Virus record (IMG/VR): IMGVR_UViG_3300044981_000350 | Location: 1-64,000 of that record | Reading direction: 5' to 3' (one strand) | Source of the DNA: a virus | DNA length: 64,000 nt | Shown: piece after piece, positions 3,774-58,738 of the stretch | Layout of the letters: every line of letters starts with the position of its first letter | How positions within the stretch are numbered: position 1 is the stretch's first letter | Notes under the pieces: model-generated | Databases searched by the model: none | The model's input: only the letters and a program-made list of their open reading frames with translations | What the model was told of the DNA's origin: nothing | Made by a program: the position numbers and the translations under genes

Positions 3774-5609
3774 ATGGGCCAAAATATCCCGGGGTCATCC
3801 CAAGTCGACGCACTTCGCAACCAGGCTGCCCTCAAAGGCGCTACCGGCGGAGCCTCTGGGGCTACTGGGCCCGAGGGCCCCACCGGCGCCACGGGTCCGG
3901 CCGGAACTCCGGGGGGAGCCACTGGGGCGACAGGCCCGATCGGCCCTGGCGGCGGCGCGTCTGGGCCCACCGGCCCTTCCGGCCCCACGGGTTCCCCTGG
4001 CGCTACGGGTGCAACAGGGAGTGGAGCCACCGGCGCGACGGGGGCGAGCGGTACCGCCGGAACCGTCGGGGCAACTGGGGCGACGGGCGCGGGCGTGACC
4101 GGAGCTACTGGGAGCCAGGGGGCGACGGGCGCTACAGGGGCCTCAGGTACAGTCGGGGCCACGGGCGCAACCGGAACGAAGGGGGCCACCGGAGCTAGCG
4201 GCGCCAACGCCTTCGGGGTGACCACCGCAAGCTTTGTGCAACCCACCGTCGGGAGTGACGTCAGCGTCAACGTCGACACCACCGATTGGATGGGGCTCGG
4301 CCAACCCGTGTTCGTAGAGACCGGGGGTGACTACACCGTGGCGGGCATCGCCAGCGGCACGATCGTGAACCTGACCAACGTAGGGGATAGCGTCAATGTG
4401 AGCCCCGGCACGACGGTCAACGCCGGTTCAAGTATTAGCCCCGGGGGCTTGCAGGGCGCCTCTGGACCGACGGGCCCCACCGGAACCCAAGGAGCGACTG
4501 GCGCCACGGGGGCGCAGGGGATTCAAGGCCCCTCCGGACCCACGGGGGCTACGGGACCGGTTGCGGCGACGGGGCCCACCGGCCCGGCGGGGGTTACCGG
4601 GGCGACAGGGCCGCTCGGCGCTACGGGCGCCACGGGCGCAGTAGGAATCACCGGAGCTACGGGGCCGAACGGAAACACTGGCGCAACGGGCGCTACGGGG
4701 CCGGGGGGAACGCAGGGCGCCACCGGGGCCACCGGCAGTGGTGGGGCCCAGGGCGCGACGGGCGCCACCGGGGCAAACGGAACGAACGGCGCTACCGGCA
4801 ATACCGGACCAATCGGTGTGACTGGCGCAACAGGGCCGGCTGGGAGCGCGAATGTTTCTATCGGTACCTTCGCGAGCCGACCGGCCGCGGGCACCGCCGG
4901 GCGCATCTATATTGCAACGGATAGCGCAGTAGGCTTCGCGGTAGATAACGGGAGCGCATGGCTTCCAATGCTGGGAGGGATGGTGCCGGGGGTGCAACCG
5001 CCGTTGGCGGCTACGTTCACGGCGGTCAATCAAGGGACATCGACGTTGACGGACGCGAACGGAACACTCATCTATACAGGGGTCATCGACACCGGGACAA
5101 CCTTCCGCGGTTATGTGCAGTCGTGGCCCAGCGGAACCACGAATACTAATACGATCGAAGGGTCAATAACTCAAATTGGTAACGCGGCGAGTTCGGGGGC
5201 CACAAACGGTTTTCCGTCTTTCGCTATTGTTATGCGCGAGTCTGCTACGGGCAAGATGCTCCAGATTGAGCTCATCTTCCAAACCGATGCCGGTGGATCA
5301 GGCGGTTTCCCTGGCGCATGGTTTACGACAGTTTCTACATGGACCGCCGCTAGCGGTTCGGGGAATAGATCCGCCACTAACTACACGTTCCCCGATCACG
5401 GAACGGGGTCGGCGGTATTTATGCGACTCCGGCGTGCTACCGCAAACATTTTCGTAGAGATGAGCCGCGACCGCCAAAACTGGGTCCAGATTGGTAATAG
5501 CCTCGCGGTGACAGCTGTTTTTACAACGGCGCCGGACCAGTATGGGATCGGCGGTTTCGGCCAGATCGTTTTGACCACCGGGCAATGCATGCACCTCGTT
5601 GCCTCATGA
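3774..5609 (+). CDS. Collagen-like fibre protein, paralogue of the first fibre
   Basis: The N-terminus [15 protein letters not shown] repeats the tag of the preceding gene. It is followed by a collagen-like array, an 80-residue insert ([15 protein letters not shown] to SISPGGLQG) homologous to that in the window's first gene, a second collagen-like array to about residue 355, and a C-terminal beta-rich head of about 220 residues with low similarity to the others. The pattern of shared stalk modules and divergent tips fits fibres that differ in target specificity. ATG at 3774 lies after an A-rich leader (gaatgaaataaa). The last part of the head is less G+C-rich than the stalk, as if acquired separately. 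Confidence 0.82.
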
Positions 5610-57007: not shown

Positions 57008-57252
57008 GATCGAGGCTCATGCCGCACGGCGCGGTGTTGGGCGAGGCTTTTATGCAAGCGCCTCAAGTTGAGGATCGAAAGGTGCTCGTCGTTCATGTAG
57101 AACCTTTCTTCAGCGTCTTCGAGATTGTAGGCCCACGTGCACCACGTTTCCTCACCAAACCCCGGATCGGATCGATCGGTGTACGTGCCCACGTAACGGT
57201 AAAGGGGGCCGTACTTACCAACCTTCGTAACGAATGCGCGTTGCTTACTCAT
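57004..57252 (-). CDS. Hypothetical 82-residue protein, first gene of leftward unit
   Basis: ATG 57252 (MSKQRAFVTKVGKYGPLYRY) is chosen because a gggag ribosome site lies 8 bases upstream; ATG 57258 is too close to it. The product is a small beta protein (YGPLYRYVGTYTDRSDPGFGEETWCTWAYNLEDAEE) with a basic C-terminal helix. On this strand, TATATA sits about 20 bases upstream of the start and GGCCGAACCGGCC nearby could be an operator. Confidence 0.5.
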   Translation of the reverse strand: MSKQRAFVTKVGKYGPLYRYVGTYTDRSDPGFGEETWCTWAYNLEDAEERFYMNDEHLSILNLRRLHKSLAQHRAVRHEPRS

Positions 57253-57550
57253 CTTCATCTCTCCCTTGTGTATATAAGACGGCCGAACCGGCCCTTTCAT
57301 TCAGCCCTAATTGCATCTCGAAAGCGTCTCATCGGATGGTACCCAAAAACCAAGCCTCGACCCCCTGGGTTGAAACCAACCCACCCGGCGCCGGCCCTGG
57401 GTCAAACAAGACCCATGCCAAGGGGCTCAGGCTGGCTCGGGCCGGCCGGGGCGTCTCATAAGGGTCTCGCAAAAAAAAGAGGGGAGGGGGCTGAATGTTT
57501 TGACCGGTCCGACCGTCTTACTAGGTACAAGGAACGAAGGAGAGACGACG
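57253..57550. promoter_or_regulatory. Divergent control region with tandem hairpins
   Basis: This 298-base gap separates leftward and rightward units. It holds a GGCCG-aac-CGGCC inverted repeat near the leftward start and two tandem perfect hairpins: TGGGTTG-AAAC-CAACCCA (57366-57383) and TGGGTC-AAACAA-GACCCA (57398-57415). A G+C-rich palindromic stretch (57429-57450) and an A8 run follow. For the rightward gene there is TTGACC (57500) inside the palindrome GACCGGTC (57502-57509), then TAGGTA (57522). I see no convincing protein frame here. Confidence 0.5.
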
Positions 57551-57880
57551 ATGAGCACGATGCGTTACAGCGGCGAGATTCGGATCCGAATCACCTACAT
57601 CGACGCGCCCCAGGGCGGCACTTGCGGTTACTACCGCTGCTTTCTCCGTGCCGTCGGTTTTCACCAAGGCGAAGGCCGGACGATTCAAGTCGGGGCCCCC
57701 GCGCACCTGACGAACGCGGTCGATTCGCCCGGGGCATTCGACGATGCAGCCCGTGCGGCCATCGCCTTCGCACAAGATGAAAACCCGGGGTGGGATGACC
57801 TCGCGGCCCACAACGAAGACGGCTACCACGTCGCGCGGAGCGCCAACGCCTTCCGCGGTCTCACCGCAAAAACGGCTTGA
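57551..57880 (+). CDS. Hypothetical protein opening the rightmost operon
   Basis: A strong ribosome site (gaaggagag) precedes ATG 57551. The 109-residue product (MSTMRYSGEIRIRITYIDAP ... GTCGYYRCFLRAVGF) has a beta-rich first half with two Cys and a helical second half ending in NAFRGLTAKTA. It does not match a family I recognise. A palindromic promoter region upstream suggests regulated, early expression. Confidence 0.55.
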   Translation: MSTMRYSGEIRIRITYIDAPQGGTCGYYRCFLRAVGFHQGEGRTIQVGAPAHLTNAVDSPGAFDDAARAAIAFAQDENPGWDDLAAHNEDGYHVARSANAFRGLTAKTA

Positions 57881-58136
57881 ATGAAACGGCCCGCTGGGCC
57901 ATCTGACAGAATCAACCCTACCCCACGGAGGCACCCACCATGAAACCCGGCCCGTCGTAATGGCGGGCCCTGCGACAACCCAAAAGATGCGGCGAGGTCC
58001 GGTTCAGCCGGGGGATACCTCGCCCGTCGCAGCCGGCTCCCGATAGGGTCCGGCGGCCTCTCCCCCTTCGTCAGGATCGATCGGGAGCCGACTGCGACGC
58101 AAGAGCAACGATTCACCGAGTAAAAAAGGAACGACC
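57881..58136 (+). ncRNA. Structured leader with short leader peptide and three strong hairpins
   Basis: The 256-base gap contains a ribosome site (acggagg) followed by a seven-codon frame ATG...TAA (57940-57960, MKPGPS). It then holds GGCCCG/CGGGCC (57949-57969, embracing the stop codon), GGCGAGGT/ACCTCGCC (57991-58024, with an inner CCGG/CCGG), and a long hairpin whose 20-base arms (58025-58044 and 58080-58099) match at 19 of 20 positions. This lies directly upstream of the gene at 58137. It may be an attenuator-like leader, a riboswitch-like element or a free-standing phage RNA. Confidence 0.5.
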
Positions 58137-58457
58137 ATGACTCAACCGACCAGCATCAAGATTGACAACGTGGAATACATCCGGGCCGATTCGGTCCAAC
58201 AGAAACCGAGCGGTAACCGCGCCGTGGTCGTCGTCGACCGCGGGTGGGTTTTCGCAGGCGACATCGAACGGGCCGACGGTCGCATCACCCTCACCCGCGC
58301 CGTGTGGGTCTTTCGATGGGAATCCGTCGGTTTCGACGGCGTACTCCGAGACCCCAAGTCGACCAAGGTCCAGATCCGGAAGTTGGAGGCGCCGGTGGAC
58401 CTCCCGGAGGCGAGCGAGATTTTCTGCGTTCCGGTCGCTGCCGATTGGGGGCTCTGA
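58137..58457 (+). CDS. Hypothetical 106-residue protein after the structured leader
   Basis: ATG 58137 has an aaaaaagga ribosome site. The product (MTQPTSIKIDNVEYIRADSV) is beta-rich with GNRAVVVVDRGWVFAGDIER, DGRITLTRAVWVFRWESVGF and a C-terminal VPVAADWGL. This resembles small phage proteins annotated as DUFs with an all-beta, sheet-sandwich look. The preceding hairpins imply controlled expression. It shares a base with the next gene. Confidence 0.55.
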   Translation: MTQPTSIKIDNVEYIRADSVQQKPSGNRAVVVVDRGWVFAGDIERADGRITLTRAVWVFRWESVGFDGVLRDPKSTKVQIRKLEAPVDLPEASEIFCVPVAADWGL

Positions 58458-58738
58458 TGGCTTCGGTGGTACGGCCGGTCGGCTACGGCAACGGCTACGG
58501 CTACGGCTACGGCAACGGCTACGGCGACGGCAACGGCTACGGCGACGGCAACGGCAACGGCTACGGCGACGGCGACGGCAACGGCGACGGCAACGGCAAC
58601 GGCTACGGCAACGGCTACGGCAACGGCTACGGCAACGGCAACGGCTACGGCTACGGCAACGGCAACGGCTACGGCTACGGCAACGGCGATGGCAACGGTA
58701 CGGTACGATGTACCCGCCCCGATCGCCGGAGACCGTAA
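58457..58738 (+). CDS. Gly-Tyr-Asn repeat protein encoded by hexanucleotide repeats
   Basis: ATG 58457 follows the previous stop (TGATG). After MASVVRPVGY the protein is about 70 residues of GYGNGYGDGNG-type repeats, then a short basic end (TVRCTRPDRRRP). The DNA is a tract of ggc plus tac, aac or gac hexamers. Gly-Tyr-Asn low-complexity proteins can form adhesive or phase-separating material. Repeat-length change by slippage is expected. It is not certain that the product is functional. Confidence 0.5.
   Translation: MASVVRPVGYGNGYGYGYGNGYGDGNGYGDGNGNGYGDGDGNGDGNGNGYGNGYGNGYGNGNGYGYGNGNGYGYGNGDGNGTVRCTRPDRRRP
58481..58698 (+). repeat. Hexanucleotide tandem repeat (GGCTAC/GGCAAC/GGCGAC)
   Basis: About 218 bases consist of GGC followed by TAC, AAC or GAC in irregular order, around 36 units. 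In the coding frame it reads Gly-Tyr, Gly-Asn and Gly-Asp. The opposite strand would read as alternating Val-Ala or Arg, which is not gene-like. Confidence 0.9.

Follow-up and report, generated by a model that had tools for sequence, protein, structure and literature searches.

A structured leader is set between two same-strand genes in the window, the 64-kb stretch of DNA analyzed here, which is the first part of a 73,439-base (73.4-kb) virus record. On the plus strand the order is GGAGG-N8-ATG AAA CCC GGC CCG TCG TAA, three hairpins (H1, H2, and H3), and then AAAAAAGGAACGACC-ATG, which opens the downstream gene. The features, all on the plus strand, are as follows.

57551-57880, plus strand: upstream gene, 109 aa, no known family
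57888-57900, plus strand: upstream 5-pair hairpin, within a thrice-repeated motif
57927-57931, plus strand: ribosome site GGAGG, 8 nt before the ATG at 57940; the same in the one relative
57940-57960, plus strand: tiny frame MKPGPS* (six aa); 21 of 21 bases shared with the relative
57949-57969, plus strand: hairpin H1, 8 pairs and a 5-nt loop that holds the TAA of the tiny frame
57970-57976, plus strand: CUGCGAC, which could pair with GUCGCAG at 58026-58032, giving 7 pairs that would enclose H2 and compete with the base of H3
57991-58024, plus strand: hairpin H2, an 8-pair outer stem (57991-57998/58017-58024) and an inner 5-pair stem with a 3' bulge; no difference between the two phages
58025-58099, plus strand: hairpin H3, arms 58025-58044/58080-58099, 19 of 20 positions paired, one C.A mismatch
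58137-58457, plus strand: downstream gene, 106 aa, with a weak, sub-threshold resemblance to Pfam DUF6948

The sequence-only reading of this region had described a good ribosome site ahead of a tiny ATG...TAA frame, a stop codon inside the first hairpin, an 8-bp hairpin after it, and a 20-bp hairpin with 19 of 20 positions paired before the next gene. All of this was borne out, with the outer stem of H2 supplying the 8-bp hairpin and H3 the 20-bp one. The upstream 5-pair hairpin had been missed. Above its arms, H3 has an apical stem of 10 pairs that carries a pyrimidine-rich loop (CCUCUCCCCCU).

Among the inverted repeats of the window, H3 ranks first. Scored at +1/-3, it reaches 16, whereas the per-simulation maxima in 60 first-order Markov simulations of 64 kb were 11 to 15 (0/60 reached 16). 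The predicted folding energy is -49.4 kcal/mol, and the 80-nt RNA window of H3 ranks 8th in stability of 15,980 windows on both strands. Folding of the whole 260 nt gave z = -2.8 on the plus strand and -1.2 on the minus strand. No second copy of H3 was found elsewhere in the genome. Taken singly, H1, H2, and the ribosome site are each unremarkable; the plus-strand density of SD-ATG pairs is 0.63 per kb.

Conservation in one close relative

Searches of viral contigs found the leader in one other contig only, IMG/VR 3300050821_018768 (56,168 bases), whose genome is permuted and ∼90% identical. Across the block 57928-58102 (175 nt) the two phages differ by five substitutions and no indels. The flanks of this block are more diverged and hold the indels, with ∼11 events in 83 nt by a hand count that included gaps; Fisher's test, using the hand-counted flank events, gave p = 0.004, and an automatic alignment gave divergences of 2.9% for the block versus 10.6% and 39% for the flanks. 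The downstream gene is nearly as conserved, however. Since its silent sites have changed just as little (3 of 56 four-fold sites), recent exchange of a segment could explain part of the low divergence, and the block may owe some of its similarity to the youth of such a segment.

H3 still folds in the relative and is slightly more stable there (-51.9 versus -49.4 kcal/mol). Three changes fall in it: the C.A mismatch becomes U-A, a U-A pair becomes U.G, and an apical G-C pair becomes G.U. As plus-strand RNA all three keep or improve pairing, whereas two would break it as minus-strand RNA, which weakly favors a role as RNA. H2 is identical in the two phages, and the pairing segments of the 7-pair alternative are likewise invariant. 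In H1 one pair is broken, and its energy goes from -16.6 to -10.4 kcal/mol. The proposed covariation check found no pair changed on both sides, a result that with two sequences has no statistical power.

Two further observations concern the genes on either side. The upstream gene (57551-57880) is a patch of high divergence between highly conserved neighbors in the two phages, its protein being 67% identical, with indels. The relative's counterpart of the downstream gene (58137-58457) carries an in-frame TGA (CGA to TGA, near 58315) in an otherwise nearly invariant VFRW motif; this may reflect a nonsense mutation or recoding, or else an error in the sequence.

A repeated motif at the head of the leader

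A 27-nt motif, TGAATGNNNNGRCCNGNYNGRCCRTCT (TGAATGN4GRCCNGNYNGRCCRTCT), has exactly three exact matches in the window and three in the relative, and it was found in the loci of no other contig. The expected number of matches in the window is 0.07, even when up to 3 mismatches are allowed. The copies in the window are these.

57277-57303, minus strand: copy 1, ahead of leftward genes
57492-57518, plus strand: copy 2, ahead of gene 57551-57880
57878-57904, plus strand: copy 3, at the head of the leader, starting with the upstream gene's stop codon

Copies 1 and 2 point away from each other, before two divergent gene runs. The copies contain an internal direct repeat, GRCC-N5-GRCC, and end 18, 32, and 35 nt before start codons that have a ribosome site, the last figure being the distance from copy 3 to the ATG of the tiny frame. 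A matrix built from the other two copies placed copy 3 third among the 146,806 positions of the complete record, with a score reached in none of 40 simulated genomes. The motif had come to light through a covariance-model match in the relative (4897-5058, minus strand) that was traced to it; as a second leader, that match was rejected.

Folding revealed no RNA hairpin common to all copies of the motif, so we read it as a DNA signal. From their sequence and placement, the copies look like promoter or operator elements. The sequence-only reading had not recorded that the leader is headed by copy 3 of this promoter-like motif. Its presence there makes a dedicated leader transcript with its own transcription start plausible, in which case the tiny frame would plausibly be the first cistron after a start at copy 3.

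The divergent control region has other symmetries. Two tandem, operator-like dyads, TGGGTTGAAACCAACCCA (57366-57383) and TGGGTCAAACAAGACCCA (57398-57415), lie in its middle; no other site in the window matches TGGGTYN6RACCCA exactly. Segments 57275-57307 and 57488-57520 (79%), and 57248-57269 and 57534-57555 (82%), are inverted copies of each other; the two divergent promoter and ribosome-site regions resemble each other as if they had arisen by inverted duplication.

The downstream gene family and the search for other leaders

Relatives of the downstream gene were found at 62 loci, on 58 viral and 4 MAG contigs, and the 27 family members scanned gave no match to any Pfam or PHROGs model. In those of these loci that were searched, a model of the leader matched in the close relative only, and no comparable inverted repeat was found within 1.5 kb at the viral ones. 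Apart from that in the close relative, the relatives of the downstream gene lack the leader, which thus belongs to the phage group rather than to the gene family.

A frame encoding a (Gly-X)n dipeptide repeat, at 58458-58738 in the window, follows 200 to 900 nt downstream on the same strand at 56 of the 62 family loci; among unrelated control loci, 1 of 80 had any such repeat. X is mostly Y, D, N, or S (GYGDGYGNG...). By position and recurrence, the small gene and the (Gly-X)n frame look like a conserved gene pair, so far undescribed, that belongs to environmental phages. Elsewhere in the window, several long rightward frames of 269 to 525 aa between 30635 and 42410 lack any Pfam or PHROGs match and are probably the virion genes of a phage group not yet described.

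Queries made from the leader itself led to no further leader. In viral contigs the exact left arm of H3 was not found, and the core inverted repeat of H3 occurred in the relative only. A pattern taken from the apex of H2 was discarded, as the four further contigs it retrieved share 19 nt in unrelated context and carry no leader; the 8-bp stem of H2 proved far too common to serve as a query. Searches for relatives through the upstream gene, the SNF2 helicase, the DnaB helicase, and the integrase led to that single relative, to a short match that was unrelated, or to nothing, and phage and plasmid records gave only short chance matches to the leader. No Rfam family matched at its gathering score. 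The mraW RNA (RF01746) was tried as a candidate and rejected: it scored 34 bits against a gathering score of 50 and was absent from the full-window search and from the relative. It resembles the leader in having one long hairpin with a pyrimidine-rich loop, but the leader is not upstream of mraW/rsmH.

Candidate roles of the leader

Two properties bear on most readings of the region. H3 is followed by CAAGAGCAACGATTC, and there is no terminator U-run after H3, H2, or any other hairpin of the leader. The SD and AUG of the downstream gene are ∼75% unpaired in the ensemble, a value that was not raised by forcing open the tiny frame, H2, or the left arm of H3. With no U-tract after H3 and an open downstream SD, processing or stability is the plainest role. 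That the elements of the leader exist, that they are rare, and that one relative retains them are matters of observation; as to function, we tentatively favor, at somewhat less than even confidence, the reading in which the region 57905-58136 is a cis-acting structured 5' leader or intercistronic segment and H3 affects how the transcript of gene 58137-58457 is processed or how stable it is.

Transcription would start just after the motif copy at 57878-57904, and the tiny frame would be translated first; H2 and the very stable H3 would then form a block ahead of the gene. The long helix of H3 could be cut by a host double-strand RNase such as RNase III, or could block exonucleases, and the downstream gene would as a result be expressed separately from the upstream gene. 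In prediction, H3 fits an RNase III-type helix of about two turns, with its 20-nt arms, 19 pairs, and 10-pair apical stem. The early region of T7 has sites for double-strand RNase processing or for protection of mRNA ends (PMC4858673). Like the RNase III hairpins of T7 early genes, H3 is a strong intergenic hairpin in a run of small genes, placed before a gene's own ribosome site. Unlike in T7, H3 comes after a tiny frame and another hairpin; no sequence relation between the two is apparent, and processing of H3 is a prediction.

The attenuator-like layout suggested by the sequence-only reading held in part. The short frame with its ribosome site, the hairpins, their retention in the relative, and the promoter-like head all agree with it; the missing U-tract and the open downstream SD do not. 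In a ribosome-controlled attenuator, translation of MKPGPS or stalling on it would select either the 57970-57976/58026-58032 pairing or the base of H3 and so set downstream expression. The tiny frame has a good SD and a stop codon in H1, and it is unchanged in the relative. Folds of the nascent chain contain the competing 7-pair helix, which is displaced once H3 is complete, and the motif copy supplies a possible promoter. This is the layout of leader-peptide attenuators of the trp/his and erm types, in which an SD-led short frame and hairpins with possible alternative pairing stand before a gene. The leader here differs from them in that it has no U-tract terminator, MKPGPS has no obvious sensing codon run, and the SD of the next gene is hidden in no fold tested; further, H1 is not kept in the relative, and the 7-nt match could be due to chance. 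With the U-tract missing and the downstream SD open, the terminator and the erm type of classical attenuation each fail a defining test, and we consider an attenuator unlikely.

Somewhat less likely still is a trans-acting phage small RNA of ∼190 nt that would begin just past 57904 and stop where H3 ends. Such a molecule would fit the promoter-like motif on one side, the very strong hairpin on the other, and the confinement of high conservation to this block, but its 3' end would have no U-tract, and no Rfam family, mraW RNA included, reached its gathering score.

The 7-pair helix also allows a form of control that would be new, in which the six-codon frame of a promoter-headed leader would control a switch between the H2-enclosing helix (57970-57976/58026-58032) and H3 and so gate a small, undescribed gene whose partner in many phages is a (Gly-X)n repeat gene. 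We hold such a phage riboregulator to be improbable.

More doubtful again is that the inverted repeat acts as DNA, in recombination, replication, or packaging. A long intergenic inverted repeat with a 35-nt spacer, and an integrase gene ∼2 kb to its left, would be in keeping with a site of this kind. Against it, one arm position is mismatched as DNA in each phage, whereas the relative is fully paired as plus-strand RNA; H3 is single-copy in the genome; the integrase is separated from it by three further genes as well as by the divergent control region; and no terminase gene was recognized nearby. The recombination or packaging site raised by the sequence-only reading drew no positive evidence.

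Least credible, and very improbable, is a small protein gene of 28 aa at 57960-58046 (55 aa in the relative) with incidental hairpins: its frame overlaps the tiny frame at TAATG and is open in both phages, but its codon usage scores 0.02 bits per codon versus 0.26 to 0.41 for phage genes, a 2-nt indel alters its upstream part between the two phages, it has no ribosome site of its own, and it leaves H3, whose right arm lies beyond its stop codon, unexplained.

Our overall conclusion, alongside the tentative preference for a leader that acts in processing or protection of the transcript, is a modest one: the leader is real and unusual, but its kind is broadly familiar and its evolutionary record thin. 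Structured leaders are poorly known in phages that have no cultivated host. Here a promoter-like motif special to the phage group is combined with a micro-frame and a highly stable hairpin, and all three are linked to a gene family that has no Pfam or PHROGs model but is present in environmental phages by the dozen. Should the leader prove functional, it would offer a compact case of posttranscriptional control inside a phage operon.
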